From a virus, in IMG/VR virus record IMGVR_UViG_3300006802_000078, positions 1-64,000 of that record: a stretch of DNA of 64,000 bases. One strand, 5' to 3'. The notes beneath the pieces are model-generated. The model had not been told where the DNA came from. It worked only from the letters and a program-made list of their open reading frames with translations, and did no database searches. Within the stretch, counting starts at the first letter, position 1. The number at the start of each line of letters is the position of its first letter. A program made the position numbers and the translations under genes. Shown in pieces: positions 12,695 to 62,226 of this stretch.

Positions 12695-12725
12695 GTTATA
12701 GTCGGATCGTTGCGCAGCGTGCAAC
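12695..12725 (-). promoter_or_regulatory. GTTGC-dyad promoter driving the Sak4-like gene
   Basis: On the minus strand GTTGCACGCTGCGCAAC (12725-12709) contains the -35-like TTGCAC; TATAAC at 12700-12695 follows with 18-bp spacing (or CTATAA at 17). The expected transcription start gives a short leader carrying AAAGGAG. It is one of five copies with the same architecture. Confidence 0.65.
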
Positions 12726-12734
12726 AAGAATCTT

Positions 12735-14000
12735 CTACCAGTCGGCCAGCGGGTCGTCAGCCGTGCCTTCTCCGATCGACGAAGACTTCGCTGCCGCTGC
12801 CGTCGTAGCAGCGGGACCCCCAGAGCAGGCGTGGTGGTAGCGGCACATGCCGTAGCGGCCGAAGCACTCCTCGGTACCCGAGGCCGGGGCATCCCACCAC
12901 GTGACGGCGCCGCGGTCCACCAGGCTGTCCCACGTGGCGATGCTCCGCTCCCACCACTGCAGTGCGATTGCGAGCCTCCCGTCAGAGAACGGCTGGGGGG
13001 GAAGCTCCACGTAGGTGGACTTGAAGGGGGGCTTCGTCTGCACGACGAGGCAGTGCACCCCGTCGTACTCGACATCGGCCGAAGCGGCGCTGCGCATCTT
13101 CTCCGCCGCGATGAGCTGGGGCTCCAGCACGCGGAAGGCGCGGAACCCGACGATGCCCCCGTAGCTGAGCTGCGCGCCGCCGGCCCCCTTGATGAGCCCC
13201 TTGTGGTCGATGCTGCGGCGCTGGTAGCCGAACTGTGCGAGCAGGTCTCGCCGGCGAGTGATGCAGACGACGTGACCCCCGACGACGAGGGGCGTGATCA
13301 GCAGTGGCTTGCCTTCCGCGTCGAGCAGCAGCGACTCGAACCTGCCGTCGCTGCGGCGGGGGATGGGGGAGCCCGCGTCGCTCCACCGCAGGATGCTCGC
13401 CGGGTCGCAGGCCCAGACGAACATGCACTGCACCTCGGCGTCCCCCCGCTTGCGAGAAGCCCGGGTGCCGACGTCAGCGACCACGGGGGCGTGGGCTCCC
13501 AGCGCGGGGGCGAGCCGCCTCGCGTCCCACGCGACGTAGCCGACGATGCCGATGATCTCCCGCTCCACCTCCAGGATCTGCGCCCGCTTCAGCGCAACAC
13601 CTGGGGGGCTCCGCTCGAAGCGGTCAAGCACGGAGTGGACCAGGGAGACGAACTGCTCCCCCTTGCCCTCGGCCTCCTCGGTCCAAGCCGTGACCGCGTC
13701 GTGGGGCAGCAGCAGCGACGACGCCAGCATCGGGGTGACCTCGACGTCGTACATCACCTTGTCACTGTCCAGATCGTGGAGCTGACCGACGATGGGGGTC
13801 TGCCCCGCGGCGACCGCCTGGTGCAGGCACCAGTGGGCAGCACCGGCGTGCACCATGCTCCCTCTGACGAGCCCGTCATCGCCCCCTTGAGGAGTGACCC
13901 CCAGCCGCTCCTGGGCGCCGAAGCGGAACAGGCAGCGAGCAGCCGGTTCGATGCGAGAGCCGCCGCGGCGGCTCCGCCCGGCGAAGGCGGCGAGCCTCAT
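12735..14000 (-). CDS. PD-(D/E)XK nuclease, Cas4/AddB-like with probable Fe-S cluster
   Basis: 421 residues. A GSMVHAGAAHWCLHQ motif near residue 47 matches the conserved His of RecB/Cas4 nucleases. RRRDLLAQF followed by RRSIDHKG near residue 262 supplies the D...DxK catalytic core. Four cysteines, one near the N-terminus (ARCLF) and three near residues 370-387 (EECFGRYGMCRYHHAC), match the Fe-S cluster pattern of Cas4/AddB. The start is an ATG with GGGTGGGGC upstream. It lies between the Sak4-like ATPase and the Xre regulator, so it is likely the exonuclease of the recombination module. Confidence 0.75.
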   Translation of the reverse strand: MRLAAFAGRSRRGGSRIEPAARCLFRFGAQERLGVTPQGGDDGLVRGSMVHAGAAHWCLHQAVAAGQTPIVGQLHDLDSDKVMYDVEVTPMLASSLLLPHDAVTAWTEEAEGKGEQFVSLVHSVLDRFERSPPGVALKRAQILEVEREIIGIVGYVAWDARRLAPALGAHAPVVADVGTRASRKRGDAEVQCMFVWACDPASILRWSDAGSPIPRRSDGRFESLLLDAEGKPLLITPLVVGGHVVCITRRRDLLAQFGYQRRSIDHKGLIKGAGGAQLSYGGIVGFRAFRVLEPQLIAAEKMRSAASADVEYDGVHCLVVQTKPPFKSTYVELPPQPFSDGRLAIALQWWERSIATWDSLVDRGAVTWWDAPASGTEECFGRYGMCRYHHACSGGPAATTAAAAKSSSIGEGTADDPLADW

Positions 14001-14015
14001 GCCCCACCCCCGAGG

Positions 14016-14342
14016 TCAGTAGACGGTGACGGCGATGGCTTGACGCAGCGCTTCGCGAGCGTCGTCCTCCGGGATCTCGAGGCCGACGGCGATGGCGTGG
14101 GCGAGCCGCTGCGAGGTGGCCACGCTGATGGGGCGCTTGCTGCCCCCCACGATGCGACAGATCGTGGCGCGGTGGCATTGGCAGACCGTGGCCAGATCCG
14201 CTTGGCACCAGCCCGTCCGCTCCATGACGTGGGTGAGCAGCTCGCTGAGCGTGCGAACTGGCGCAGCCGTGGGCGCAGGCTCCGCCGCCGGTGCTGGCGC
14301 AGCTGGCTCAGGGAGCTCGGCGATGGAGAGCAGCACGGGCAT
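14016..14342 (-). CDS. Xre-type helix-turn-helix transcription regulator, possibly on a leaderless mRNA
   Basis: 108 residues. An Ala/Pro-rich N-terminal 30 residues precede a Cro/C1-like HTH: LSELLTHVMERTGWCQADLA, then ATICRIVGGSKRPISVA as turn and recognition helix. There is no ribosome binding site before the ATG at 14342. The GTTGC-dyad promoter immediately upstream places transcription initiation at or within a base or two of the ATG, so the mRNA may be leaderless, as for lambda cI from PRM. It is the obvious candidate for the protein that binds the repeated dyad, and would then autoregulate. Binding is inferred, not shown. Confidence 0.8.
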   Translation of the reverse strand: MPVLLSIAELPEPAAPAPAAEPAPTAAPVRTLSELLTHVMERTGWCQADLATVCQCHRATICRIVGGSKRPISVATSQRLAHAIAVGLEIPEDDAREALRQAIAVTVY

Positions 14343-14348
14343 GCGAGC

Positions 14349-14378
14349 AGCGTAGCGCAGTGTTGCGTCAAGTGCAAC
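14349..14378 (-). promoter_or_regulatory. GTTGC-dyad promoter of the Xre-type regulator
   Basis: On the minus strand GTTGCACTTGACGCAAC (14378-14362) includes -35-like TTGCAC; after exactly 17 bp comes TACGCT (14354-14349). Six bases later is the ATG. The downstream GCAACACTGCGCTAC is identical in the 53.6 kb promoter. Confidence 0.65.
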
Positions 14379-14385
14379 TTGTGGG

Positions 14386-16779: not shown

Positions 16780-17027
16780 GGCCTCGTCTCCCTCAGCCAC
16801 GCAGAGAGGCGCAGCACCAGGCGGTGGATCACGTCGCGCGCCCCTGGGTCGTCGGGCTCGATGCCGTAGATCTCGAAGCGCGCCCCCACGTCAGCCCCGG
16901 CAAGGACGGGGGCTCCGTCCACTACGATGCTGAAGATGGCTGGCTCTTGCCCCAGCTGCTCCGGCTCCGGCTCGCTCGGAGCCTGGGCTACGCGGTACGC
17001 CGCGAGGTCGATGATGACGCCGTCCAT
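16776..17027 (-). CDS. Small acidic hypothetical protein
   Basis: 83 residues starting MDGVIIDLAAYRVAQ with GGAGGGTTGA before the ATG. It is acidic in the middle (SEPEPEQLGQEP) and ends in a basic helix. It is translationally coupled to the SF2 helicase by ATGA, which suggests a helicase partner, but no family is recognised. Confidence 0.8.
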   Translation of the reverse strand: MDGVIIDLAAYRVAQAPSEPEPEQLGQEPAIFSIVVDGAPVLAGADVGARFEIYGIEPDDPGARDVIHRLVLRLSAWLRETRP

Positions 17028-17141
17028 TCAACCCTCCTCTTCTGGGCCTGGGGTCACGAACCAGACCACCGCCACCAGCAGCCAGAACCCCAGCGTGGCG
17101 ACGATCAGCACCTTGATGCCGCTCGCTGCTACGACATCCAT
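17028..17141 (-). CDS. 37-residue single-span membrane protein
   Basis: Starts MDVVAASGIKVLIVATL and continues through one hydrophobic helix (IKVLIVATLGFWLLVAVVWF) to a short acidic tail (TPGPEEEG). GAGGAGG sits 8-9 nt upstream of the ATG, and the gene overlaps the end of the upstream HTH gene by 13 nt. The stop TGA abuts the next ribosome binding site. A small inner-membrane protein is clear; its role is unknown. Confidence 0.7.
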   Translation of the reverse strand: MDVVAASGIKVLIVATLGFWLLVAVVWFVTPGPEEEG

Positions 17142-17719
17142 GCCAGGTCCTCCTCGAAGTCCTGCTCCGGCGTGGGTGCGGGCGCAGCTGCTGGCTCCGC
17201 CTTCGGCGCTGGCTCCGCTGCGGGGGCCGCCGGCAGCGCCCCCATCTCATCGAAGAGGATCTGCCGGAGCTCGTCTCGGATGTGGGCGTACTCCGTTCCA
17301 GGCTCGTGCTTGACGTAGGCGATCCACGCCTCCCTCAGCCGCGGCAGGTTGCGCCAGGTGACCAGCCCTCCCTGACGGGTGCCCCATCGCGCGAGGATGT
17401 CGCGGCTGGGGGTTCGGATCGACAGCTCCCTGGCCAGCCCTGGGGTGGCGCGGCAGGTGTCGAGGAGCCACTGAGCGCTGCCCACGACGGGCTTGCCCGA
17501 CACCGTCTGCGGCGGCCTGCCGGACAGCGCGTCGTCCTTGCGCAGGAGCTTCGCGATCTTGGCCACGGTCATTCTGGATACCCCCGTGTCGTCCATGATG
17601 CGGTCCCAGGTGTGACCACTTCGCAGACCGAGGATGACGTGGCCGTACTTGTCGCGGAGGTCGTCGTCTGTCAGACGCCGCCTTCCGACCGGCTTCTTCT
17701 TGGTGGGTGCTTTGGGCAT
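17129..17719 (-). CDS. Helix-turn-helix DNA-binding protein
   Basis: 196 residues from the ATG after AGGAGGTACGGAGA. The Lys/Arg-rich N-terminus (PKAPTKKKPVGRRRL) precedes an HTH of the resolvase/Hin type (GHTWDRIMDDTGVSRMTVAK). The C-terminal 50 residues are Ala/Pro/Glu-rich and probably disordered. It could be a transcription factor or a DNA-metabolism accessory protein. Confidence 0.75.
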   Translation of the reverse strand: MPKAPTKKKPVGRRRLTDDDLRDKYGHVILGLRSGHTWDRIMDDTGVSRMTVAKIAKLLRKDDALSGRPPQTVSGKPVVGSAQWLLDTCRATPGLARELSIRTPSRDILARWGTRQGGLVTWRNLPRLREAWIAYVKHEPGTEYAHIRDELRQILFDEMGALPAAPAAEPAPKAEPAAAPAPTPEQDFEEDLAWMS

Positions 17720-17736
17720 TCTCCGTACCTCCTGTG

Positions 17737-20534: not shown

Positions 20535-20860
20535 TCGCAGTCTCCCTTGAAGTTGAGGATGCCGCTGCCGGCATTGCCAGACGTGAACTCGCCGTTGAGC
20601 AGCAACACGGTGATGTCACGACTCCACCAATCCCGCAGCGTGGACATCGGAACCTGCCACCTGTAGCTGCACGCCCAGTACATGACCTCGTGCTCGGTCG
20701 CGGCTTCCTCGTGCCAAGGCAGCCCGTCCGGGCCGAGGAGCCATCGGCAGCCAAGCTCACGCTCCGCCCAGATGTAGCCGCCCGCGTCGAGCTCGACACC
20801 GACGGCGTACGGCAGCACTGGCAGCGGCGCTCGCCGGCGAAAGCAGGCAGCTCGGCTCAT
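20531..20860 (-). CDS. Hypothetical protein
   Basis: 109 residues from an ATG with AAGGAGGAGCC upstream. It contains GYIWAERELGCRWLLGPDGL and is rich in tryptophan. No family is recognised. Coupled to neighbours by short overlaps. Confidence 0.75.
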   Translation of the reverse strand: MSRAACFRRRAPLPVLPYAVGVELDAGGYIWAERELGCRWLLGPDGLPWHEEAATEHEVMYWACSYRWQVPMSTLRDWWSRDITVLLLNGEFTSGNAGSGILNFKGDCE

Positions 20861-21084
20861 GGCTCCTCCTTCGCTGCGACGGCAGCATCGAGAGCTGCTT
20901 CCGCTTCGGCCAGCTCGCCCCACGTCAGCTCGTCGATCCCGCTGACTTCCACATCGCACCAGCCACCGGCGTAGCCGACGCGCGGGTCCGGCTCGTCCCA
21001 CCAGCCGGAGACGTTGCGCACCTCGCCGGCGACGAGGCCCCGTGTGACCATCGTGTTGCGGTAGCTGGCAGAAGGGAATGGCAT
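20857..21084 (-). CDS. Small hypothetical protein, first gene after a dyad promoter
   Basis: 75 residues, start MPFPSASYRNTM after GAGGAGGTGACG. The C-terminal half is acidic and Ala-rich (LAEAEAALDAAVAA). It lies directly downstream of the 21.1 kb GTTGC-dyad promoter, so it begins a transcription unit that probably includes the Dam-like gene. Confidence 0.75.
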   Translation of the reverse strand: MPFPSASYRNTMVTRGLVAGEVRNVSGWWDEPDPRVGYAGGWCDVEVSGIDELTWGELAEAEAALDAAVAAKEEP

Positions 21085-21099: not shown

Positions 21100-21130
21100 G
21101 GTATAGCAGGGTTGTTGCACCTCCTGCAAC
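21100..21130 (-). promoter_or_regulatory. GTTGC-dyad promoter at 21.1 kb
   Basis: On the minus strand GTTGCAGGAGGTGCAAC (21130-21114) supplies TTGCAG as -35; 18 bp later is TATACC (21105-21100). The next gene's ribosome binding site and ATG follow at once. Confidence 0.6.
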
Positions 21131-26750: not shown

Positions 26751-28169
26751 CTACTCCTTGGTCACAGACAGGGTCAGCACTGCGGCCTCCAGCACGTGGC
26801 TGAGCCCGACAGCGCCAGCTCCTTCGAGTCGAGCGATGGTGAGCGCCACGGGCATGACCGCCGCGAGACCCGCCTTCAGCTTGAACGGATCTCTGGTCTC
26901 CATGTCGGAGACTGCCGGCTCCGGCATCTCCCGAGCGAGCTCGACCCGGCGCTGCACGTCAGCACTGCACTCGCCGGGCTCGCCCCACACGAGTCTCTCC
27001 AGCGAGATCGTGTCGAGGTGCACGACCATCTCGATGCCCAGCAGCCGGCGCACGTCGTCGAGGCGCCGGCGCCATCGCTCGAGCGTCTCGAAGCTGCAGG
27101 TGCATGCCCGCTTGGTACTACCTGCGAAGCCGCACGGACACGGCGCAGCGGCCGCCACCAGGTGGAACTTCGACGGCATCGTGACGGTGCCGGCAGCCCG
27201 AGTCTTCGTGATGCTGCCATCGGTCGCGGCTCTCGCAACGAGCTCGAGCACGTCTCGCCGGAACTCGGTGACCTCGTCGAGGAAGAGCACGCCGGTGTGG
27301 GCCAGCGAGACCTCGCCAGGGCGGAAGTTCGCAGCGCCGACCATACCTGCGGCGCTCACCGTGTGGTGCGGTGCGCGGAAGGGGCGCTGCGAAGTCAGCG
27401 GTGCGCCCGGGGCGCGCAAGCCGGCGGCGTCGTGGACCCGCGCCGTGTCGATCATCTCCTCGACGGTCAGGCGCGGGAGGATGCCGGGCAGGCGGGCGGC
27501 GAGCATCGTCTTCCCGCAGCCCGGCGGGCCGACGAGGAGCAGCCGGTGCCCCCCGGCAGCGGCGATCTCGAGGGCGCGGCGCGCCTGATGCAGCCCGCGG
27601 ATGTCGGCCATGTCGAGCTGATGCTGCAGCTTCTCGTAGCGAACGCCCATCGAGGTCTCGCCCTTCCCGGTCAAGGCCAGGACGGAGTCGCTCAAGTTGC
27701 GGCAGGCGCGCGTGATGCAGTTCGCTTGTGCAGCCACGCTGTCTGCGGCTTCGGCGGCCACGATGGCGCAGCCGGCCTCAGCTGCGGCCGCGGCCTCGCC
27801 TGCCTGCAAAGCGCCGCGGAAGCCACGGAGCTCGCCGTCCAGGCTGAGCTCTCCGGCTGCGAAGACCGGCGTGTCGGGGAGCTGCACCTGACCACTCGCC
27901 GCGAGCACCCCCAGAGCGATGGGCAGGTCGTAGTGGGTGCCGTCGTGACGCATGCCGGCGGGCGGCAGGTTGATGACGACGCGCTGTCGTGGCCACTCGA
28001 AGCCGGATGCCGTGACAGCGGAGCGCACCCGCTCGGAGGTCTCCCGGACGGCGCTGGCCGGCAGGCCGACGATGACGGTGGCGGGCAGGCGGCGCAGCAG
28101 GTCGACCTCGACGGTGACCAGGTGGCTGTCGACGCCGATGAGGGTGAAGGTGTAGACGGTGGTGGTCAT
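26751..28169 (-). CDS. comM-like: ComM/YifB-family AAA+ ATPase (Mg-chelatase-like)
   Basis: 472 residues, slightly shorter than the ~500 usual for ComM/YifB. The N-terminal ChlI-like domain has VGLPASAVRETSERVRSAV and RVVINLPPAGMRHDGTHYDL, both family signatures, then ELSLDGELRGFRGAL. The AAA+ core has Walker A LLVGPPGCGKTMLAARL near 212, RPFRAPHHTVSAAGMVG, and Walker B GVLFLDEVTEF near 295. Then come CPCGFAGSTKRACTC, the family's cysteine motif, and the SLERLVWGEPGECS region. In bacteria ComM is a hexameric branch-migration helicase for natural transformation. Its presence in a phage is unusual; a role in recombination or in handling incoming DNA is inferred. Confidence 0.92.
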   Translation of the reverse strand: MTTTVYTFTLIGVDSHLVTVEVDLLRRLPATVIVGLPASAVRETSERVRSAVTASGFEWPRQRVVINLPPAGMRHDGTHYDLPIALGVLAASGQVQLPDTPVFAAGELSLDGELRGFRGALQAGEAAAAAEAGCAIVAAEAADSVAAQANCITRACRNLSDSVLALTGKGETSMGVRYEKLQHQLDMADIRGLHQARRALEIAAAGGHRLLLVGPPGCGKTMLAARLPGILPRLTVEEMIDTARVHDAAGLRAPGAPLTSQRPFRAPHHTVSAAGMVGAANFRPGEVSLAHTGVLFLDEVTEFRRDVLELVARAATDGSITKTRAAGTVTMPSKFHLVAAAAPCPCGFAGSTKRACTCSFETLERWRRRLDDVRRLLGIEMVVHLDTISLERLVWGEPGECSADVQRRVELAREMPEPAVSDMETRDPFKLKAGLAAVMPVALTIARLEGAGAVGLSHVLEAAVLTLSVTKE

Positions 28170-44605: not shown

Positions 44606-44779
44606 TTGCATCTCCCGCATCTCTCGTGGTCAGTCGGCAGTCCACTTGGACCAACGTGTGTTGGTTGCAGGCCCACGCCATTGCCCCACGCGCGGCGTCA
44701 TTGCCGCACGCTCGGCTTCGCACCTGCATTACCCGTGGCTTTAGCCTCAGTTGCCTGCGGTCGAGTTATGGCATCAAGT

Positions 44780-44827
44780 GGTGGAGGCGAGCGGCTTCGA
44801 ACCGCCCGTCGAGTATCGCAACCTCGG
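44780..44827 (-). other. tRNA 3'-half-like sequence (possible attP core or tRNA remnant)
   Basis: On the minus strand: an anticodon-arm-like CGAGG-TTGCGAT-ACTCG (last pair mismatched), a 3-nt variable region, a T-arm GGCGG-TTCGAAG-CCGCT, then CGCCTCC-A-CCA as 3' acceptor strand, discriminator and encoded CCA. Total 48 nt, as expected for tRNA positions 27-76 with a short variable loop. No D-arm or complementary 5' acceptor strand (GGAGGCG) is found upstream, so it is not an intact tRNA. Confidence 0.5.
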
Positions 44828-44874
44828 ATCTGGGGGGCCACGGCTGGGCTCAGGCGCTGGCGCGCTCAGCTCAC

Positions 44875-44898
44875 GGTGTGCATGTGCACCTGCACACC
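44875..44898. repeat. Perfect inverted repeat GGTGTGCA-N8-TGCACACC
   Basis: 8-bp arms with an 8-bp spacer that is itself partly palindromic (TGTGCACC). Located in the gene-free interval 44606-45010. Could be an operator or integrase arm site; unproven. Confidence 0.5.
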
Positions 44899-45010
44899 GG
44901 CCAGACGCGCCGTGCCCCGCCCCGGGGCGTATGGGGTAGCCGCAGCAGGCGACCCCCAACAACGAGGATGCACTCGGCGCCGGCGCCACCTGCCGGCCGC
45001 CCCCGTATGG

Positions 45011-45250
45011 TCACTCGTCGTGGAAGGTCTTCGCCTCGGCGACTGCTGCTTCGAGGCTGTCGAAGATCATGACCTCCCCCGCGTCGCCCACGATGGGGCG
45101 CCACGAGGTGAAGCCGCTCATGGCGATGAGCCGCCACTGCCCATGGGCGATGCGCTCGGCGCGCAGCTCCCCGAGCCCGGGGTAGACGTAGCCGGTGGGC
45201 TCACCGGGAACTTGGCCGCAGGGGCGACCGGGGACACGACGTGTGGTCAT
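45011..45250 (-). CDS. Small hypothetical protein
   Basis: 79 residues, start MTTRRVPGRPCGQVPGEP after GGAGAAGCC. C-terminal part FDSLEAAVAEAKTFHDE resembles the end of small KTSC/DUF-type phage proteins, not firmly assignable. Confidence 0.65.
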   Translation of the reverse strand: MTTRRVPGRPCGQVPGEPTGYVYPGLGELRAERIAHGQWRLIAMSGFTSWRPIVGDAGEVMIFDSLEAAVAEAKTFHDE

Positions 45251-45537
45251 GGCTTCTCCAGGAGGTGGATGAGGGTCAGGTCGCCGAGCATCTCGGCGAG
45301 GATGTGGGCTTCGAACACGGCCAGGGTCTGGCCTTCGCCGAGCAGGCACGGGTCTTCGATGTTGCCGTGCGCCCCCGCGTAGAGATGCGTGCAGCCGTCG
45401 TCGTCGACCTCCCACCAGGAGGAGGCCTCGTCGATGCCGTCGGGGTCAGGCCGAGCCAGCCGCGCGAAAGCGGCTTCGGCGATGGCGAGGTACCCCTCGG
45501 GCCCCTCTGCGAATGGGATCATGCCAGGATACCACAT
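45247..45537 (-). CDS. Small acidic hypothetical protein
   Basis: 96 residues starting MWYPGMIPFAEGPEGYLA. Overlaps the next gene by ATGA. Acidic with a hydrophobic C-terminal helix (HILAEMLGDLTLIHLLEK). Function unknown. Confidence 0.65.
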   Translation of the reverse strand: MWYPGMIPFAEGPEGYLAIAEAAFARLARPDPDGIDEASSWWEVDDDGCTHLYAGAHGNIEDPCLLGEGQTLAVFEAHILAEMLGDLTLIHLLEKP

Positions 45538-45540
45538 GGC

Positions 45541-46356
45541 TCAGCCCTCGTTGTCCCACGCCACGCACTGGCTGTGCCAGCGCAGCTCCCGCTCGGAGAA
45601 GCGCCGAGGGCCAGACAGCGGGTCGCCGCTGCGCCCGTCGCTGATGTAGGCGGCGAGGTCGCCGGGGTCACGCCAGCTGACCGGGCCCTCGGCCTCGCGC
45701 CGAAGCTGCCGGGCCTCACGCCGGCGCGCCCCGCGCATCGTCTCGGCGTCGTCAGCAGCCTGCTCCCGCACCAGGCGGGCCAGCTCGTGTTCCCCCCGCG
45801 AGGCGCACGCGGCCTCGATGCGGGGCACGGCGGCCCGGAGCTGGACGAGCGCGGGCTCGACTCGCAGCTCGGAGCGGTCCCGGTTCATGCCGACAGCGAC
45901 GCACGCCACCGGCTCGACAGCGCGTGGCCCCGCGGGCACCGTCACCGGGCCGTAGCCCAGGCGCACGCGCTCCTCCGCACGGGCGCGGACAGCTGCGGCA
46001 CCGAGGGCCAGGCTCAGGGAGCCGAAGCCGGGGGCGGCGCCGATCACATCGAAAGGCCGCGTCGGGTACTGCGCGTCCTCCCATTCATCCCAGCGGCACT
46101 CCTCACGCAGCTCGGCCCACGTCAGGTTGACCTCGTCGAGCTGCGCCGGCGGGACCTCCCGGGGCCAGCGCGAGCGGCGCTTGCTGCGCCGGCCAGTGCC
46201 GGGCACAGGAGCACCGCGGGTAGGCTCGCAGTAGCTGGGCTCCGGCGCGGGCTCCGGGGTGGGCTCGGGGGCGGGCTCCTCGGCGCAGCGCCGCAGGAAG
46301 ATGAAGCGGAGCGCAACGCGTGCGCGCAGAGACAGACCGGGCTCGAAGTACATCAT
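45541..46356 (-). CDS. Hypothetical protein, first gene of the long minus-strand array
   Basis: 271 residues starting at tandem ATGs after AGGAGCCG. N-terminus MMYFEPGLSLRARVALRFIF, then a Pro/Glu repeat (EEPAPEPTPEPAPEPS), then a charged helical body. The frame is open upstream to 46578, but that part lacks a ribosome binding site. No family recognised. Confidence 0.65.
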   Translation of the reverse strand: MMYFEPGLSLRARVALRFIFLRRCAEEPAPEPTPEPAPEPSYCEPTRGAPVPGTGRRSKRRSRWPREVPPAQLDEVNLTWAELREECRWDEWEDAQYPTRPFDVIGAAPGFGSLSLALGAAAVRARAEERVRLGYGPVTVPAGPRAVEPVACVAVGMNRDRSELRVEPALVQLRAAVPRIEAACASRGEHELARLVREQAADDAETMRGARRREARQLRREAEGPVSWRDPGDLAAYISDGRSGDPLSGPRRFSERELRWHSQCVAWDNEG

Positions 46357-46444
46357 CGGCTCCTGTTGTCGGCTCGCTGGGGCCGACGTGTGACCATCGC
46401 GCAGGGGCAGCGGACCATCCCGCTTCCCGCGCTCCCAGGCCACC

Positions 46445-46468
46445 CACCTGCGTTGCCAGTCGCAGGTG
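46445..46468. repeat. Inverted repeat CACCTGCG-N8-CGCAGGTG
   Basis: Perfect 8-bp arms, 8-bp spacer, upstream of the first gene of the minus-strand array. Same 8-8-8 spacing as the repeat at 44875. Candidate operator. Confidence 0.5.
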
Positions 46469-46520
46469 AGCGCTTCGGCACACGAGACATGCTGGCTGGC
46501 CTCGTGCTGCGCTCGTGCCT

Positions 46521-46538
46521 TGCAGTCACATGACTGCA
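46521..46538. repeat. Palindrome TGCAGTCA-CA-TGACTGCA
   Basis: 18-bp near-perfect palindrome in the control region upstream of the minus-strand array. Candidate dimeric regulator site. Confidence 0.5.
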
Positions 46539-46753
46539 CCTCTCGGGGGAGGGGAAGCATTCTCGGAGACCTTGGCACCCCTGCGACAGCAGGCAGGCGG
46601 CAGCGCGTCCGCTCCCCCGATGGGCGGGCGGGCCCCCAAAGCCGGGTGTTCTTGGCGCGTGGCCGGCGTCACGCGGGAAGGTCAATCACACATGGCGCAC
46701 CTCTTGGTGGTGGGGGTGTTCGCGTACGGTCGTGCACTGCTGCGGGCACCTGG

Positions 46754-46794
46754 TACAGTGTTTCACGTGTTTCATTTTCGCGTGAGACACTGTA
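46754..46794. promoter_or_regulatory. 14-bp-arm inverted repeat at the edge of the AT-rich island
   Basis: TACAGTGTTTCACG (46754-46767) pairs with 46781-46794 with a single T/G position; the loop is 13 nt and T-rich. It is bounded by AT-rich DNA. It could be an initiator-protein site, operator or terminator. Confidence 0.5.
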
Positions 46795-46859
46795 AGTGCT
46801 TGGAATCCTGTTCGCGGATCCGTTGTTTTATACCGAGTGCACACCAATGGAGGATTTTT

Positions 46860-46955
46860 GTGGCGAGCGGAAAAAAGAGGGGACCTCCTCGGGGGGTTTG
46901 TTCGCTTACGGCTCGCCGGATGGCTCCGAAGTGCAACCAGTATTTAGAAGTATAA
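46860..46955 (+). CDS. Possible 31-residue basic peptide
   Basis: GTG start 6 nt after GGAGG (46849-46853), reading (M)ASGKKRGPPRGVCSLTARR to a TAA. It is the only good translation signal in the AT-rich island and the only plus-strand one there. Basic; could be DNA-binding or a leader peptide. Weak support. Confidence 0.35.
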   Translation: MASGKKRGPPRGVCSLTARRMAPKCNQYLEV

Positions 46956-46970
46956 CTAAGTATAGTTATA
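46951..46970. repeat. AT-rich palindrome TATAACTA-N4-TAGTTATA
   Basis: Perfect 8-bp arms in the most AT-rich part of the window; contains TATA boxes on both strands. Candidate DNA-unwinding element or promoter pair. Confidence 0.5.
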
Positions 46971-47001
46971 AGATTACTGATTGCTGCTGCTGCGGCGGTT
47001 G

Positions 47002-47024
47002 GCGCGGCCCTTCGTGGGCCGCGC
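47002..47024. terminator. 9-bp hairpin GCGCGGCCC-TTCGT-GGGCCGCGC
   Basis: Perfect 9-bp stem with 5-nt loop, 47 nt after the stop of the possible 31-residue peptide. No T tract. Possible terminator. Confidence 0.45.
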
Positions 47025-47124
47025 TGCCGTGGTTGTAGCCCCCGGCGGGGTAAGCCGAAGCCGAGAGGGGGAGGTGGCGCAACACTGGGGCAGGGCTGCG
47101 CCGTAAGTAGCTGAATATGCGGGG

Positions 47125-47193
47125 GGTAAGGCAATATGCAATATAGTGCATATACGCTTACCGTGATGCACATTGTATGCGCGGGAGTAAGCG
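47125..47193. promoter_or_regulatory. Mutually exclusive GTAAG/CTTAC hairpins downstream of the 47.2 kb gene
   Basis: GGTAAG (47125-47130) can pair with CTTACC (47157-47162), extended by TATGCA/TGCATA inside. Alternatively CGCTTAC (47155-47161) pairs with GTAAGCG (47187-47193), which touches the stop codon of the minus-strand gene. The shared middle strand makes the two folds exclusive, as in attenuators. Confidence 0.45.
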
Positions 47194-47748
47194 TTACCGG
47201 GACAGCTTGTGGCGGATCTCGCTGTAGTCCTGCCACGCGGCCTCACTACGGCCCGCCGCCAGAGCAGACCCCCAAGGTGACACACGCATGCGGACCTGGG
47301 GATCGACAGTCGCCCCCTCCCACGAAGACACGCGCGCTGGCGTCGTCGTAGAGGTTGCGCCGCTGCGGACTACGATGCGCTTCCGCTCGCACATGGTACG
47401 CAGAGCCGCATCCATGAGCGTACCGACGTGCCCCTGCGGTAGCGCGATAGTCAGGGTCACTACGTCATCCCCCTTCGGCATGGCGCGGGCAACCCCCGCC
47501 CACGAGCGAAGCTCGCCCGCCGCCTCCCCTGCCAGGCGCGCGCGCTCCGCCCATGCCTCGTTGTCCTGCACGTCCTGCGCCGCCCGCGCCAAGTGCGGCG
47601 CGCGGTCCTTCCTCGCATGCGCCAAGCGCAGAGCGGCCCCTTCGGGATCCCTGACTTGGGCCCTACACTCCGCCGCCCCCTGCGCGAGCAGGTCACACGC
47701 AGAGAGCAGCACGGCGCGAAGCTGCGCCGGCGTCGCTTCGATTACCAT
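47194..47748 (-). CDS. Hypothetical helical protein in the control region
   Basis: 184 residues from an ATG after GGAGGGGTGCGTA. The N-terminal half is helical and charged (LRLAHARKDRAPHLARAAQD); the C-terminal half is strand-rich and basic (MCERKRIVVRSGATSTTTPA). It lies alone between palindrome clusters. It could be a regulator or initiator, but no fold is recognised. Confidence 0.7.
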   Translation of the reverse strand: MVIEATPAQLRAVLLSACDLLAQGAAECRAQVRDPEGAALRLAHARKDRAPHLARAAQDVQDNEAWAERARLAGEAAGELRSWAGVARAMPKGDDVVTLTIALPQGHVGTLMDAALRTMCERKRIVVRSGATSTTTPARVSSWEGATVDPQVRMRVSPWGSALAAGRSEAAWQDYSEIRHKLSR

Positions 47749-47858
47749 TACGCACCCCTCCTGGTTGCACTTTCGCTCTATCTGTTGACCCTACGCGCGG
47801 GCACACCCCTTCGATGGGCTGGCGCGTAGTCGGAGCCGAAAGCAAAGACATAAGCATA

Positions 47859-47887
47859 GGGCCAGGGCAGCTTAGCTGCCCTGGCCC
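47859..47887. terminator. Strong 12-14 bp perfect hairpin
   Basis: GGGCCAGGGCAGCT and its exact reverse complement are separated by one base (effective loop CTTAG). It lies about 110 nt upstream of the 47.2-47.7 kb gene on the minus strand. There is only a weak T run (ATTCGGGTTT) on the plus side. Likely intrinsic terminator or the end of a structured RNA. Confidence 0.55.
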
Positions 47888-48913
47888 ATTCGGGTTTGGC
47901 GAGCCCAGCAACGGCGCGAGGGCGCCGATACCAGCTTGACCGTGGGTTATCCCCGCGGCCCCTGTCATCGCCCGCTAGGGCTCTGGTTCGAAGCTGCAAT
48001 ATCGACCAATGGGCTCCCCGTATCGTTTCCGGATCATGGCCCATTGTTCCCTCGTGGGTGCGCCGTTGCGGGGCCCACCTACACTGTCGGCTTCGGGATA
48101 GCCGACGATAGCGACCGATCGCCGTTGTCAATGGCGACGCGCTATCTGTTTATGTGTGTGAATACCGTTCAAACGACCGCCGCCGGTATCCTACCCGGTA
48201 CGCTACGCCGTTTCGTCGCTTCACCCTACTGTATGTGAGGCGGTATTGGCGTCTATCCGTCGAGACGCGCTACCCACCGCCGATCCTTTGCTACCCGCGC
48301 CACGATCCCGCTTCCTGCCCTCTGGTTCCTTTCACCGGGAGCGCCGGGGCCGCGGGCTACTGCCACCATGGGGGCCGCCTACGCTTGTGAAGGGGGCGCC
48401 CATGGCGCGGGGTAGCTGCTACCGCCGTCGCTGAGGGAGGGGGGGTCGTGGGGGGTGTCAAAGGGCGCAAGCCGACTACCTGTCGCCGACCCTCGGGGGC
48501 TACCTCCGGGGCGACGGATCCCGCTATCGAGCGGCCGAGTGGACCCTTGGGTGATGCCATAGGGCGCGCACGTCGAGACCCGGATCCCCACTGGTGTCCC
48601 GGGCGACAGCTACAGAGGACGGAGGGAGGGCTTACCGGGTAGTCGCGCACGGGGCGGAAAGTGACGCGTCGTCGCTTGCCGTGGCGTTACTGCCTTCCTC
48701 CTCCCGTGCGCCGACATAGGGGCCGAAGCCCTTGCTGCGGGTGGGGGGCGGATCAGATCACCAGACAGGGGACACCGTCCGCTATGCCGCGGAGGAGGCG
48801 CCTGTCTGTACGGGTAGGGGCTGAAAAAGACCGAAGGGGGCCGAGCGGGGGTTAGCCGTCCGCCCTCTGAGGAGGACCAGGGAGTCCCCTGGTCCTGCAC
48901 AGAGGGCAGCGGG
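47888..48913. ncRNA. Gene-free, densely structured region (candidate large ncRNA)
   Basis: No frame with a good start is found on either strand. Inverted repeats include CAATGGGC/GCCCATTG (48007-48014, 48039-48046), GTCGGC/GCCGAC near 48090, a 10-nt long-range match CTACCCGGTA (48190-48199) with TACCGGGTAG (48633-48642), CCGCT-ATCG-AGCGG near 48520, CAGACAGG/CCTGTCTG (48762-48769, 48801-48808) with an inner hairpin, and a nested terminal hairpin at 48862-48907. The strand of any transcript is not known. Confidence 0.4.
48862..48907. terminator. Nested two-stem hairpin after the 48.9 kb gene
   Basis: Inner stem GGACCAGGG/CCCTGGTCC (48874-48882, 48887-48895) with a 4-nt loop sits inside GCCCTCTG/CAGAGGGC (48862-48869, 48900-48907). 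It begins 7 nt beyond the stop of the minus-strand gene, so it is a good intrinsic terminator candidate despite no T tract. Confidence 0.6.
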
Positions 48914-49549
48914 CTACCAACCGCCGACCTTGCGGGAGGCCGCCTTGCGCCGCGCGCCCGGGACAGGGATCGAAGCGTTCCGACCGCGGAGGTGACTGTC
49001 CATCGCGGACAGCGCCTCCCCGTGGGAGCGGTTGCTGCCGTTGACGGCGACGGCGGCCGCGATCGCGTGGGTGATCGCCTCCTGAGCTTCCTGGTAGCTG
49101 GGCGCCGCGGTGATCAGGCGGAGGATTGCGGCCTTGACGGCGGTACGCTCCGCGCCGACCGTGGAACCATCGAAGTAGGCGATCGCGCTCTTGCCTTCAT
49201 CGGGGAGGTAGACCAGGAACGCAGGATCGGCGGGGAGCGCGGAGCGGGCCTCGTCCTTCCCCAGCTTGGCGCCGACGCGGTAGCGGCCGATCATGCTGGC
49301 GACGGCGGGATCGGCGGGATCGGCGGAGGGGGCCACGGTGTCCAGGGTGGCCCGGAGGTTGGCGATCGTGTCGTCACGATCGGCGATCGTCGCCAGGAGG
49401 GCGGCGATCGTGGCGTCGCGGTCGGCGATCGTCGCCAGGAGGGAGACGGCGTCGGTGTTGGTGTCGGTGTCGGCAGGGGCCGGCGCCACGTCGACGACGA
49501 CGGGGGCGGAGGGGGCGGAAGCGGCGGTGGTGCTGGTCTTGCGGGACAT
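48914..49549 (-). CDS. Protein with tandem heptad repeats, single-gene minus-strand unit
   Basis: 211 residues from an ATG after AGGATGACCCG. The N-terminus is Ser/Ala/Pro-rich; then LLATIADRDATIAALLATIA and a repeat of the same 14-residue unit form a coiled coil, with an exact 22-nt DNA repeat beneath. The middle holds FLVYLPDEGKSAIAYFDGST, and the C-terminus is basic and Arg/Gly-rich (GARRKAASRKVGGW), likely nucleic-acid binding. Its place in the control region, with a terminator behind, suggests a regulatory or origin-binding role. Confidence 0.75.
   Translation of the reverse strand: MSRKTSTTAASAPSAPVVVDVAPAPADTDTNTDAVSLLATIADRDATIAALLATIADRDDTIANLRATLDTVAPSADPADPAVASMIGRYRVGAKLGKDEARSALPADPAFLVYLPDEGKSAIAYFDGSTVGAERTAVKAAILRLITAAPSYQEAQEAITHAIAAAVAVNGSNRSHGEALSAMDSHLRGRNASIPVPGARRKAASRKVGGW
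49380..49443. repeat. 22-nt direct repeat, 42-nt period, in the coiled-coil gene
   Basis: The same 22 bases (starting TCGGCGATCGTCGCCAGGAG) occur at 49380 and 49422. Each copy contains the dyad GGCGATCGTCGCC. The period equals two heptads of the protein. Confidence 0.8.
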
Positions 49550-49888
49550 CGGGTCATCCTACGGGGTGCGGGGCCAGGGGAGATCCGTGGCCACGGCAGG
49601 AATGTACTACCGCGCTATGGCGCTGGCAAGGCGGTACGCGCAACCCTACCCCGAAAGGAGAAGGAACGCGCGCGAGGCAGCCTGGCAGCCCGGCAGGGGG
49701 GCAGCTCGGCAGCTCGATCGCGGCGGGGGGTTCCGCCAGGCGGCCGACGGAGGGGGGGTCGGCCAGGATGCCGGTGCCGCCGTGGTCGTAGCTGAGGGGG
49801 AGGGGGCATTCCGCCCGCGCGGGACGTGACCGCTACGCGTGGTGCCCCAAAAATCCGCAGCACCTCCCGCCCCTCCCACCATTTATTC
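49550..49888. other. Gene-free interval upstream of the plus-strand operon
   Basis: About 340 bp without a supported gene. It holds G-rich runs on the plus strand and a short AAAAA tract near 49850; the dyad promoter follows. No further feature is seen. Confidence 0.5.
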
Positions 49889-49917
49889 GTTGCGCGCCAC
49901 GCAACCAGCATGCTACT
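49889..49917 (+). promoter_or_regulatory. GTTGC-dyad promoter of the plus-strand operon
   Basis: GTTGCGCGCCACGCAAC at 49889-49905 provides TTGCGC as -35; TACTCC follows 18 bp later at 49912-49917. The first plus-strand gene starts at 49944. Confidence 0.55.
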
Positions 49918-49943
49918 CCTCACCCACACTCCAGGTGCCAGCC

Positions 49944-50537
49944 ATGGACCGCTACACTCTCCGCTCCCTCCGCCGCCTTCGGGGCCCCCTCGTGCGGGAC
50001 CCTATCCTCTGTATGATCGTCCCGGCGCACTACACCCAGCAGCGCCTGGCCGAGGGGGGCGTGGTCGTTCGCCGCTTCCCCCTGCCACCGCCGCAGCGCA
50101 TCGTCGAGATGGACATCGCGCAGGCGGCGCCGGCTCACGCTCCGGAGAACCCGCTCGAGTTCCGCGAGTTCGTGATCCGCCGCTGGCGCTACGCCGAGAC
50201 CTTCCTCGTGCCGACCACGGATGTGCCGCGCATCACGGCCGGCGCCATGGAGCGCAAGATGGACTGCACCGTCGCCGACCAGAGGTTGCCCGGCGCCTCC
50301 CTTGGGGAGATGTCGCGGTTCCTCCGTCGTCTGGGCTACGCCCCCAAGCGGATGCGCGTCTCGGAGATCCACCGGCTGTACCGGCGCAGGGCGGCGAAGT
50401 CGCGCATCACGCTGGCGATGTGGTGCATCGGTGACTACGACCACGGCAACAAGCTCGTCATGACCTGCGGCGACGACACCTGGTGGCACCTGTGCTGCCC
50501 GCTCGCTCTGCCCAGCAACGCGGCGGAGTCCCCGTGA
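49944..50537 (+). CDS. Basic hypothetical protein, first gene of plus-strand operon
   Basis: 197 residues, start MDRYTLRSLRRLRGPLVR; the ribosome binding site is weak (CCAGG). Arg-rich with a helical central part (MRVSEIHRLYRRRAAKSR) that could bind DNA, and a Cys/Trp-rich end (GDDTWWHLCCPLALP). No family recognised. Confidence 0.7.
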   Translation: MDRYTLRSLRRLRGPLVRDPILCMIVPAHYTQQRLAEGGVVVRRFPLPPPQRIVEMDIAQAAPAHAPENPLEFREFVIRRWRYAETFLVPTTDVPRITAGAMERKMDCTVADQRLPGASLGEMSRFLRRLGYAPKRMRVSEIHRLYRRRAAKSRITLAMWCIGDYDHGNKLVMTCGDDTWWHLCCPLALPSNAAESP

Positions 50538-53637: not shown

Positions 53638-53665
53638 GTTGCGTCTTGAGCAACACTGCGCTACC
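53638..53665 (+). promoter_or_regulatory. GTTGC-dyad promoter of the morphogenesis block
   Basis: GTTGCGTCTTGAGCAAC at 53638-53654 provides TTGCGT as -35; 17 bp later is TACCCT at 53662-53667. The stretch GCAACACTGCGCTAC is identical to the HTH-gene promoter at 14.36 kb. Confidence 0.65.
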
Positions 53666-53691
53666 CTCTCCACGCAAGAAGGAGCTGCTCC

Positions 53692-54465
53692 GTGCCCACT
53701 CCGATCGTGACCAACCCCTCTGCCCCCGCGCCGCGCGGTGGGCCTCCCCCCCAGGCCGCCGCCTTTCTGATGGACCACCAGCAGGTCTACGCGGACCTTC
53801 TCACGAGCAGCCTGCCCCACCCGCTGCTCACCGTGGCGATCTACAGTCTGCTCGTCTCCAACAACGACATCGCGGCGGCGGGTCACGCCGCCGGCGACAC
53901 CAACGTCGTCTCGAGCGCGCTGCAGGTGATGGAGGCCATTCTCACCAACGAGCCGTCGCTGGCCGACATCGCCAGCGACAGCCCCGAGATGTACATCGGC
54001 AGGGTGTGGCTCCTCATCGACCTCGAGGTCATGACGTCGCTGCTCCCCGCTTCGATGCTGACCCCCGAGCTGGTCACCACGATCATCGAGGTGGGGGAAG
54101 TGCTGCGCCAGCGCGATGCTCTGGAGAGCCGCATCGGAGCCGGCCAGGCGCCGACCGTGGTGCAGGCAGCCCCGAGCCACCCCAACCTCTCCCCTGCTGC
54201 AGCAGCGCTTCGCGCGAAGGCGCTGGGGGGAGCCGCTCCCCGCCAGGAGAGCGTGGGGGCGCCTCGCGGAGCTCCGCTGCAGGGCTTCGCCCGTCTGGCT
54301 GAGCCCGCGCCCGCAGACTCCTCCGAGCACGTGGATCTCGATGGCTCGGACCGCGTGAAGCGCGTCCTCGCCGCACTCGGCGAGGAGTTCGACGAAGCCG
54401 ACCCCAATGCGCTGAGCGCTGCCCTGCGGAGGCGGATCCAGCACACCCACCCCCAGCAGCAGTAG
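53692..54465 (+). CDS. Hypothetical virion-morphogenesis-region protein
   Basis: 257 residues, GTG start after AAGGAGCTGCTCC. Pro/Ala-rich N-terminus, a helical hydrophobic core (LLTVAIYSLLVSNNDIAAAG...IGRVWLLIDLEVMTSLLP), then an Ala/Pro-rich linker and an acidic C-terminus (DRVKRVLAALGEEFDEAD). First gene of a block leading to portal and capsid genes. No family recognised. Confidence 0.7.
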   Translation: MPTPIVTNPSAPAPRGGPPPQAAAFLMDHQQVYADLLTSSLPHPLLTVAIYSLLVSNNDIAAAGHAAGDTNVVSSALQVMEAILTNEPSLADIASDSPEMYIGRVWLLIDLEVMTSLLPASMLTPELVTTIIEVGEVLRQRDALESRIGAGQAPTVVQAAPSHPNLSPAAAALRAKALGGAAPRQESVGAPRGAPLQGFARLAEPAPADSSEHVDLDGSDRVKRVLAALGEEFDEADPNALSAALRRRIQHTHPQQQ

Positions 54466-55988: not shown

Positions 55989-55990
55989 TG

Positions 55991-56656: not shown

Positions 56657-56710
56657 TCTGAACGAGAAGACGCGCCGCGCTGCGCGTGAACCAGCAACAC
56701 GAGGTGAGCG

Positions 56711-57238: not shown

Positions 57239-58173
57239 GCGACCGCGTCGGCATGCCGCTGGAGGGCTTCGCGCCCTCCGGCATCACTCCGGCCGCGCCG
57301 GCTGCGCCGGCCGCGCCGGCTGCGCCGGCTGCGCCGGTCGAGCCGGCCGAGCCCGTGGTCGAGCCGGCTGCGCCCGTGGTCGAGCCGGCTGCGCCGGTCG
57401 AGCCGGCCGAGCCCGAGCCTGTGGCCGAGCCCACGCCCGAGCCGGAGCCGCCGCCCGAGCCGTACCGCATCGCTGACGACGAGCGGGGCAGCTACGGGGA
57501 GCTGGGTGCCGCCGTGTGGTTCGACTCCGCGGTGGCCGCCGTGCCGGAGGAGCATCGAGAGGCGATGCTCGCGACGATGCGGGAGTGGGGCGACATTGCC
57601 ACGGCGCGGCAGGGGTTGGAGGAGCTCGGGGCCTCCATCGACGGCAGGATTGAGCGACTGGACGCCTTGCTGAACGCCGACGGCCATGAGACGAAGAAGG
57701 CGCTCATGGCCGAGGTCCGCGGCGTCATCGACACCGAGGTGGCGGCTCCTCTGCGAGAGGCCATCGAGTCGTTCGAGGCCCGCGCGGCGGCGGAGCTGCG
57801 TGAGTGGGTGGAGGAGGCGTCGCCCCAGGTGGTGAACGATCCGGAGCTTCGCGAGCTCTACGGCGACCTCTACGACACCATGAGGCAGCGCCACCCGGAG
57901 ATGAAGGAGTACGCACTCCGCCGCCGGGTGCTGAACGCGGTGCTGCGAGGGGTCGAGCCGGCGGAGCCTGCGCCCGCAGCTGCTCCTGCTCCCGCCCCCG
58001 CAGCTGCGCCTGCGCCTGCGCCCGCCTCTGCTCCGAGGGCGAAGCCGAAGGGCCCTGGGGTGCTCGGGGACGTCACCCCTGCGAAGGTGGAGGGGGCGAG
58101 GCCCGGCTGGCGGGAGCGGGGGAGCGCCCTGGCGGGGCAGGTCGCTCCCAAGGAGTGGTTCTCCCGCGAGTAG
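57235..58173 (+). CDS. Candidate scaffolding protein
   Basis: 312 residues; ATGA overlaps the upstream gene. The N-terminus consists of repeated AAP and VEPAEP units, the centre is a long charged helix (REAIESFEARAAAELREWVE), and the C-terminus again Ala/Pro-rich then basic. Coiled coil flanked by disordered tails next to head genes is typical of scaffolds, but no sequence signature proves it. Confidence 0.5.
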   Translation: MSDRVGMPLEGFAPSGITPAAPAAPAAPAAPAAPVEPAEPVVEPAAPVVEPAAPVEPAEPEPVAEPTPEPEPPPEPYRIADDERGSYGELGAAVWFDSAVAAVPEEHREAMLATMREWGDIATARQGLEELGASIDGRIERLDALLNADGHETKKALMAEVRGVIDTEVAAPLREAIESFEARAAAELREWVEEASPQVVNDPELRELYGDLYDTMRQRHPEMKEYALRRRVLNAVLRGVEPAEPAPAAAPAPAPAAAPAPAPASAPRAKPKGPGVLGDVTPAKVEGARPGWRERGSALAGQVAPKEWFSRE

Positions 58174-58192
58174 CCGCGCTGGTGCGGCTACT
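58169..58192. terminator. Bidirectional hairpin embedding both convergent stop codons
   Basis: AGTAGCCGC and GCGGCTACT form a 9-bp stem with a 6-nt loop between the plus-strand scaffold candidate and the minus-strand portal gene. The TAG stop of each gene lies within the stem. No T tract. Confidence 0.55.
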
Positions 58193-60002: not shown

Positions 60003-60013
60003 GTCCGTGGCTC

Positions 60014-62188
60014 CTATGCGTCGCCAGTGATGCCCCAGGCTATCGCGTCAGGATCGTACAAGCTGCGCACGCCTTCCGGCGTGGCTCCTACACGATTCGC
60101 TTCCTGCTGGGCGAGGGCCTCCAGCATCTTCGCCGCAGTGATGCCTTGCGCCCCGCCGGCGAAGAGGGGGGCGAGCTCCTGGTCCATCTCAGCCGCAGCG
60201 CGACTGCGCAGGGCGCTGATGATGGCGGAGGCGCTGACGAGCTCCTGTCGCAGCGCCGCCTCCTCCTCCGTGTCCTTGCGGGGCAGGCGGAACACGGTGG
60301 TGACGAAGATGTCGGCGGCGATGACGTAGCATCTCGCTTGGTCGAAGTGGTGGCGCGCGCCGGTGTTGTCCGCGCGCTTCTGTCGCGGCTTCCAGTCGCC
60401 GTTGTACTGCGCCAGCTCGAGCAAGCCGCTGCGGCTCCGCAGCTTGTGCCTCCGGCTGCGGAGGCCTTCCGCGAGTCGGGCGGTGCCCTGTTCGATGCTC
60501 GACTGCGTCGCCTTCCACCCCGGCAGCCCGTCGGTGTCGTACCAGATCGGGTGTACGTTGCGGTCGCGCAGGACGGAGATGGTGCCGCCGGCCCGCTCCA
60601 AGGCGATGGCGCAGGGGAACTCTGCGGAGGGGGAGTAGAGCTTCTGCACCGCGACGATGATGTCCGCCATCTGCTCCGGCAGCACCTGGCCGCGCCACGC
60701 TGCCACCTCGTGACCGTCCCGAGCGCGGAGCACCACCAGGGCGGAAGGGTCGCCGCTGCCCCGCTTTGAATAGCCGGCGGTGTCGGCGATGAGGACGTAC
60801 ATCTCGTCGACCGACGGCTCGTCGAAGATCTCCGCTCCGTAAGGGCCCTCCCGAAGCGCTGGGCGCTGGTCGGCCTCGGCGAGCATGTCGGCGATAGCGT
60901 CGGCCGGCATGAGGGTGTTCCCCCCACCGAGCCACCCGTGGTAGGGGCTGGGGGGGTACTTGCTGTCGAACTTCGGGTAGCTGCCGCGGAAGGTCGACAC
61001 CGTCTCCAGCCGGCGGAACATCAGGTGCCCGTCGCTGATCCTGCTGGCTTCCTCACTGAGTCCCGCGGACTGGGAGTAGCGGTAGATGATCTCTGCAAGC
61101 CGCTCCTCCTCCTCCGTCCGCTTGAAGTCGGGGGGGACGTCCGCCTGAAGAGGCTCCAGCCGCCACCAGGGGACGAAGATGGGGTGGAACCGCCCCTGGT
61201 TGTCGAGGGCAGCGAACCACTTCTGCTGGTGGTCGCTGCCGAAGGCCCCCCACGTGGACTCCAGGAATACCTGGGCGTTGCCACGCTGGTTGAATGCGGG
61301 GAAGACGTTGCCGGCCGCCCGGGTCTGATCGAGGATCTCCCCCCACTCACTCAGGATGATGCGGTCCACGGCGTGGCCGATACCTGCCGTCGGGCCCCCC
61401 AAGCTGATGACCTTGATGAAGCCCCCGTGGAGAAAGGTCATGCGGCGCTCGCTCCCCGACTTCTGCGACTGGTCGAGGGGCACGCGGAGGCACTTCGGCA
61501 GGTGGCGGTAGGCGAGGCGGATCCGTCGGAACAGCTCGGTGGCGACTGCGTCGCTGTTGGCGGCGATGACGCACTGCAGCCCGCGGAAGTACATCGCGTC
61601 GCGCAGGATGATGGCGAGCGACAGCACAGTCGACATCATCGCTTGGCGGCACTTGCCCACGATGTGCCACTGGTCCAGCCGGGAGGGCTCGAGCCCGAGC
61701 TCCTCCACCGCAGCGAGGCGCTCTTCCGCGGGCAGCGCGCGGATGGCGTTGAGCGCGTGGGTGCGCATCACCACCGCTTCCTGCCAGGGCGTGGGGTCGG
61801 CCAGCCCGAGGTTCTCCGGGGCTTGGTCCCCCAGCGGGTCGCGCTTCTGCAGCTTGTTGATGGTGCTCAGGCGGAAGAAGGCGGTGGGGTGGTTGAGCGC
61901 GTCCAGGATCAGGGTGTAGTCGAGGTGGGCCGTCTGCTCTTCGTGGTCCGGGTCGTCTCTGTCCGGATCGAAGATGTAGACTTCAGCGTCCGGAGCGTAC
62001 AGGCACGACAGGGGGTGGCGGGGCGGCATCTCAGGGCTGTCGAGGCCTACCACCAGGGGGCGAGAGTGCAGTTTGCCGAAGATCGGGTCCGCGGGATCCA
62101 GCGCGCGCCGGACCAGGACGTCGAGTGGGTGGATGTGACTACGATCGGCGACGACGCCTTCCGCGGAGATGCCGAGCTCGGCTTCCAT
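60014..62188 (-). CDS. terL: Terminase large subunit
   Basis: 724 residues, long for TerL. Start after GGGAGACTCG. An N-terminal ~115 residues precede DPTPWQEAVVMRTHALNAIR. The ATPase P-loop is of the terminase type, HIVGKCRQAMMST near residue 173; Walker B is VDRIILSEWGEILD near 278; coupling motif FLESTWGAFGSDH. The RNase H-like nuclease has LIADTAGYSKRGSGDPSALV (first Asp near 465) and CAIALERAGGTISVL (Glu), plus DQARCYVIAADIFV. It packages DNA through the adjacent portal. Confidence 0.9.
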   Translation of the reverse strand: MEAELGISAEGVVADRSHIHPLDVLVRRALDPADPIFGKLHSRPLVVGLDSPEMPPRHPLSCLYAPDAEVYIFDPDRDDPDHEEQTAHLDYTLILDALNHPTAFFRLSTINKLQKRDPLGDQAPENLGLADPTPWQEAVVMRTHALNAIRALPAEERLAAVEELGLEPSRLDQWHIVGKCRQAMMSTVLSLAIILRDAMYFRGLQCVIAANSDAVATELFRRIRLAYRHLPKCLRVPLDQSQKSGSERRMTFLHGGFIKVISLGGPTAGIGHAVDRIILSEWGEILDQTRAAGNVFPAFNQRGNAQVFLESTWGAFGSDHQQKWFAALDNQGRFHPIFVPWWRLEPLQADVPPDFKRTEEEERLAEIIYRYSQSAGLSEEASRISDGHLMFRRLETVSTFRGSYPKFDSKYPPSPYHGWLGGGNTLMPADAIADMLAEADQRPALREGPYGAEIFDEPSVDEMYVLIADTAGYSKRGSGDPSALVVLRARDGHEVAAWRGQVLPEQMADIIVAVQKLYSPSAEFPCAIALERAGGTISVLRDRNVHPIWYDTDGLPGWKATQSSIEQGTARLAEGLRSRRHKLRSRSGLLELAQYNGDWKPRQKRADNTGARHHFDQARCYVIAADIFVTTVFRLPRKDTEEEAALRQELVSASAIISALRSRAAAEMDQELAPLFAGGAQGITAAKMLEALAQQEANRVGATPEGVRSLYDPDAIAWGITGDA

Positions 62189-62209
62189 CGAGTCTCCCGT
62201 GGGGTGGTC

Positions 62210-62226
62210 GTTGCGGGGTGAGCAAC
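62210..62226. promoter_or_regulatory. GTTGC-N7-GCAAC dyad between divergent terL and capsid genes
   Basis: GTTGCGGGGTGAGCAAC matches the repeated dyad exactly in arm sequence and spacing, but no good -10 box is seen at 17-18 bp on either strand. It may act as an operator only. Confidence 0.5.

Follow-up and report, generated by a model that had tools for sequence, protein, structure and literature searches.

What controls an uncultured phage in which one perfect inverted repeat recurs at six scattered places between genes, and which protein would read that repeat? The question is raised by IMG/VR virus record IMGVR_UViG_3300006802_000078 (91,625 bp), of which the first 64 kb constitute the window analysed here. 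TerL, portal-like and PolA genes agree with a phage source, as does the virus record, and as an earlier note on this DNA had assumed. The six copies of the repeat GTTGC-N7-GCAAC (the dyad) are probably operators of a single phage-encoded homodimeric protein of the Cro/C1 (XRE) type, most likely the product of the gene at 14016-14342, which would act as a repressor. A dispersed operator regulon is real in this phage, and regulons of this kind are already known from other phages.

Six intergenic dyads and their promoters

Direct pattern search recovered six perfect copies of the dyad in the window (Table 1), at the positions that the earlier note had given. Dinucleotide-preserving shuffles contained 0.05 copies on average and never more than 1, in line with the previous estimate of less than one copy by chance. 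Allowing one mismatch added just two copies in the window, both within genes and at about chance level. The spacing between the arms is equally specific: spacers of 0 to 25 were scanned, and six copies were found at 7, one at 18 and zero at all others. The earlier note had called for a scan of the whole contig; beyond the window, another 27.6 kb of the record contained zero further copies. Coding and non-coding sequence was assigned by a purpose-built gene caller. All six dyads are entirely non-coding in a contig that is 7.7% non-coding (P ~2e-7), which bears out the intergenic placement first noticed. The arms are fixed, the centres are not conserved and the flanks mostly are not. The dyads at 14362 and 53638 do have GCAACACTGCGCTAC in common, as previously described.

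Five of the dyads lie over a sigma70-like promoter (TTGCNN, 17-18 bp, TAnnnn), with the gene start 19-38 nt past the dyad; the -35 and -10 boxes listed for them in Table 1 had been read correctly before. With automatically called gene starts, four of the six dyads have a TA at +7 or +8 that points to a start no more than 70 nt away (P = 6e-7), a geometry found in 1.4% of random non-coding 17-mers of the contig. The number rises to five of six if the GTG start at 53692 is used. At dyad 2, 6 nt separate the end of the -10 box from the start codon ATG of the helix-turn-helix (HTH) gene at 14016-14342, so the mRNA of this gene is probably leaderless. Dyad 6 is placed differently, 21 nt upstream of the terL ATG (62188) and 37 bp upstream of the -35 box of the capsid promoter, and a -10 (TA) at the usual spacing is absent on both strands.

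Table 1. Positions of the dyads, their promoters, the candidate regulator and two dyad-free promoters in the window.
Feature	Coordinates	Strand	Sequence	Promoter elements	Target, context or family
Dyad 1	12709..12725	-	GTTGCACGCTGCGCAAC (minus strand)	-35 TTGCAC 12724-12719, 18-bp spacer, -10 TATAAC 12700-12695	gene 11579-12673 (-); ATG 35 nt from dyad edge
Dyad 2	14362..14378	-	GTTGCACTTGACGCAAC (minus strand)	-35 TTGCAC 14377-14372, 17-bp spacer, -10 TACGCT 14354-14349	
Dyad 3	21114..21130	-	GTTGCAGGAGGTGCAAC (minus strand)	-35 TTGCAG 21129-21124, 18-bp spacer, -10 TATACC 21105-21100	small gene 20857-21084 (-), GGAGG ribosome site
Dyad 4	49889..49905	+	GTTGCGCGCCACGCAAC	-35 TTGCGC 49890-49895, 18-bp spacer, -10 TACTCC 49914-49919; TGC precedes -10	plus-strand gene block downstream, first gene 49944-50537
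Dyad 5	53638..53654	+	GTTGCGTCTTGAGCAAC	-35 TTGCGT 53639-53644, 17-bp spacer, -10 TACCCT 53662-53667	start GTG at 53692, after AAGGAG
Dyad 6	62210..62226		GTTGCGGGGTGAGCAAC		gap between divergent terL (-) and capsid-like gene (+)
Candidate regulator	14016..14342	-			108-aa XRE/Cro-C1-type HTH protein; HTH_31
Dyad-free promoter	62264..62292	+		TTGCAC-N17-TAGCAT	upstream of capsid-like gene 62339-63406 (ATG 62339)
Dyad-free promoter	49601..49629	-		TTGCCA-N17-TACATT	upstream of gene 48914-49549 (-)

The promoters themselves are not unusual for this phage. The string TTGCNN-N16..18-TAnnnT occurs six times in the whole contig; five of these are non-coding, each with a spacer of exactly 17 bp, and three of the five carry no dyad (62264, 89198 and, on the minus strand, 49629). 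The promoter type is thus ordinary here, with the dyad added to a subset. The earlier note had proposed a dimeric regulator on sites over the -35 box, together with a new phage promoter/operator class. The dimeric regulator is well supported by the promoter geometry, by the intergenic placement and by recurrence in other phages with Cro/C1-type genes on either side of or next to the sites. The new class is not supported, since the promoters are ordinary and the combination of dyad and promoter recurs in phages with essentially no relation to this one, in their lysogeny switches. Such recurrence is probably due to TTGC doubling as a -35 box. The literature searched, outside which most subscription papers fell, contained no published operator with GTTGC-N7-GCAAC.

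A candidate reader and a possible mechanism

Among the 97 window proteins scanned, the product of 14016-14342 alone matches an XRE/Cro-C1-type Pfam family (28.0 bits, curated cut-off 27), and it also matches phage repressor families in PHROGs. The protein encoded at 17129-17719 gave a weak homeodomain-like match. The XRE-type gene is itself under one of these sites, with dyad 14362 in its promoter. As the earlier note had suspected, the 14016-14342 protein is a plausible and prime candidate for the reader of the dyads. Its putative recognition helix, HRATICR, fits by eye the pattern [NDHAG]-[KR]-[SAT]-[TSH]-[ILV]-x-[RK] of helices encoded next to dyads. The fit is not diagnostic because the pattern is close to the general XRE consensus.

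We suggest that each monomer would read one GTTGC half-site. With 12 bp, or roughly a turn of the helix, between their centres, both half-sites should be exposed on the same side of the DNA. In the promoter-bearing copies the left arm holds the -35 box of a host sigma70-type promoter and the right arm falls in the spacer, so that a bound dimer is proposed to exclude RNA polymerase and thereby to repress rather than activate. The protein would repress its own, probably leaderless, promoter, and four further transcription units on both strands would be repressed coordinately. Dyad 6, in the gap between terL and the capsid-like gene, may have an auxiliary role or act as a roadblock.

The same dyad in other genomes

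Searches with the TerL, capsid, helicase, HTH and primase/helicase proteins for true relatives recovered a single sequence, IMGVR_UViG_3300025889_000133, which is a 59-kb fragment of this same phage and nearly identical to it. Viral contigs were also scanned at the DNA level, first for the dyad followed by TACNCT and then for the dyad followed by TATANT. The first scan identified IMGVR_UViG_3300010366_000013 (G003), a temperate phage with seven perfect dyads and several XRE genes. Four or five of these dyads lie over TTGCNN-N16..18-TAnnnn promoters, and one occupies the gap separating two divergent Cro/C1-type genes. G003 thus resembles the window phage in having the identical GTTGC-N7-GCAAC, mostly over TTGCNN-N17-TAnnnn promoters, in a genome with XRE genes. 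It differs in its guanine-cytosine (GC) content of 64.7% and in encoding an integrase; the two phages have no syntenic gene content in common and almost no protein similarity. The second scan added L181/L177, L146, L147 and L169, with two to three dyads each, located within or next to divergent XRE switch regions (L181, for instance, has TTGCGT-N17-TATAAT).

The scans yielded 138 unique pattern matches, of which 99 are coding, as by chance, and 39 intergenic. HTH_3 domains were found in 12 of 38 genes flanking intergenic dyads and in none of 60 control genes, which come from the same loci and have a gap upstream (Fisher P = 3.3e-6). Repeated dyads in L041, L018 and L031 were set aside as coding coincidences; in L041 they were seen inside structural genes.

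Several loci of the set have further features. L089 (366 and 1542) and L135 (2157), both from IMGVR_UViG_3300035698_011338, have three dyads before small genes of unknown function; two were seen with near-identical flanks followed by TATAGT, possibly another small operator regulon. L072 (5976), L099 (1699), L128 (1965) and L165 (684) each have an intergenic dyad ahead of a conserved gene of ~87 aa, at 46-52 nt from the -10. Two of these four loci come from records longer than 300 kb. On the opposite strand, L128 and L165 encode another protein, similar between the two. Matches to HTH_39 were obtained for four proteins of the set, which may be those of these four loci. In both L146 (6586, 6630) and L104 (2098, 2142), two dyads are spaced by exactly 44 bp, close to four turns of the helix, as if for cooperative binding; the two contigs are unrelated (36% and 65% GC).

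Tentatively, GTTGC-N7-GCAAC could be an operator code at which phages with essentially no relation to each other, temperate as well as apparently non-integrating, have arrived repeatedly, since the TTGC arm doubles as the -35 box and mutation could not separate operator from promoter. In the window phage, the code would then have expanded beyond one autoregulated gene into a regulon spanning the genome, with no lysogeny module present. We consider this broader proposal doubtful at present. One operator sequence does recur in phage switches whose base composition differs widely, and this should aid the prediction of immunity groups and promoters in uncultured phages. For a phage without close relatives in the collections searched, the analysis provides a regulon and a candidate master regulator. 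The general view of phage gene control is unchanged by the finding.

Alternative readers and known systems

Several results weigh against a single XRE reader encoded at 14016-14342. Relatives of this protein were not found in the collections searched, and its AlphaFold prediction, made from the single sequence without an alignment, was poor. The effective number of HTH_3 cases is below 12 because they come from about eight contigs, some of them related. The C1-like protein of G003, which has the dyad upstream, has a 92%-identical copy with an identical recognition helix in a 16-kb contig (L188) without intergenic dyads, and it may therefore not be the dyad reader in G003. Bacterial genomes also contain the full form of dyad plus promoter. 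It is non-coding in 12 of 16 matches and lies before varied genes, including regulators of several families such as IclR- and GntR-like ones. Given such diverse neighbours, an XRE reader does not follow from the dyad alone; the dyad seems instead to have arisen repeatedly, as a solution in which TTGC is both half-site and -35 box. The bacterial copies would also fit a phage that borrows a host regulon, its dyads being read by a host transcription factor of, for example, the LexA, MarR or GntR type. The 16 matches are scattered over the whole genome collection, though, and no examined genome stretch has several intergenic copies, so that no large host regulon with this exact site is seen. The phage XRE gene lies directly under one site, and other phages have the dyad inside their own switch regions. 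We regard a host reader as unlikely. Similarly improbable is a reader among the other phage proteins, one without a recognisable HTH, for which the XRE gene at 14.0 kb would be just one target. For most genes of this phage no family match was obtained, which leaves room for such a protein, and the near-copy of the G003 protein away from any dyad points the same way. An operator in its own promoter is, however, the usual autoregulatory arrangement for Cro/C1 proteins, and XRE genes are enriched beside dyads in other phages.

The dyads could also be activator sites or belong to promoters of a phage-specific or virion RNA polymerase. Promoters of N4-like phages form a hairpin of 5-7 bp with a 3-nt loop at a fixed distance and are read by a giant virion RNA polymerase. 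The window phage encodes a virion-sized protein of 4,447 aa (75279-88622) reminiscent of that enzyme, but a search of the protein found no RNA polymerase domain. N4-type hairpin promoters are rejected on this result together with the 7-nt variable centre, whose bases are not conserved, and the variable spacing of 17 or 18 bp to the TA box. The same promoter type also exists without the dyad, and the wider possibility of activation or a dedicated polymerase is very improbable. A chance origin has a negligible probability, as does a family of dispersed repeats with no regulatory role. Two copies have 15 bp in common beyond the dyad, and duplication could explain part of that similarity. The number expected in shuffles, the single arm spacing, the centres and flanks that are not or mostly not conserved, the exclusively intergenic placement and the -10 boxes in register refute this explanation statistically. 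Repression by one Cro/C1-type protein of the phage is the reading that we favour.

The arrangement can be compared with several well-described phage systems. The conserved inverted repeats of Streptomyces phage phiC31 and the C1 operators of phage P1 are scattered sites of ~17 bp tied to early promoters and read by one repressor. The phiC31 sites are inverted repeats, as in the window phage, but sequences and repressor families differ. Lambda operators are 17 bp long. Lambdoid CI/Cro systems resemble the window phage in a dyad-like operator over the promoter, a Cro/C1-type HTH protein and autoregulation. The sites in the window are instead scattered over 50 kb rather than clustered in one switch. 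The window phage does not fit a temperate lambdoid switch, given this scatter, the XRE gene standing alone, with no divergent repressor pair recognised among the proteins scanned, and the lack of an integrase among the Pfam and PHROGs matches listed for the 97 window proteins (late-region proteins were scanned in part only). Among phages with operators of the lambdoid type, Staphylococcus aureus phage phi11 has three homologous 15-bp operators, bound by dimers, between divergent repressor genes (PMC3991615). In Cluster A mycobacteriophages such as L5, one repressor reads a short site present in many dispersed copies, in promoters and in short intergenic gaps (PMC9283540). This dispersed multi-operator logic is common to L5 and the window phage. 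The L5 sites are 13-bp and asymmetric, number more than 20, are oriented with transcription and are bound by monomers. The window phage has six symmetric 17-bp dyads, five of them on promoters, and a different HTH protein. Membership in the L5 stoperator family is ruled out, the sites being perfect 17-bp dyads.

Other features of the phage are of separate interest. The stretch 44606-48913, near the strand switch, is poorly coding, with gaps of 405, 840 and 1165 bp and more non-coding DNA than elsewhere. The 4,447-aa protein of the late region is encoded by a single open reading frame and has a match to LPD23 (Large polyvalent protein-associated domain, 7e-17) and otherwise almost no family match. 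The gene at 6982-9906 (-) encodes a DNA polymerase A with a uracil-DNA-glycosylase domain at the N-terminus of the same protein. Unusual passengers for a phage include a RadC-domain protein (1.8e-27) elsewhere in the window and a Mg-chelatase/ChlI protein (2e-65; ComM/YifB-like), most likely encoded at 26751-28169 (-), a position taken from inspection of the sequence only.

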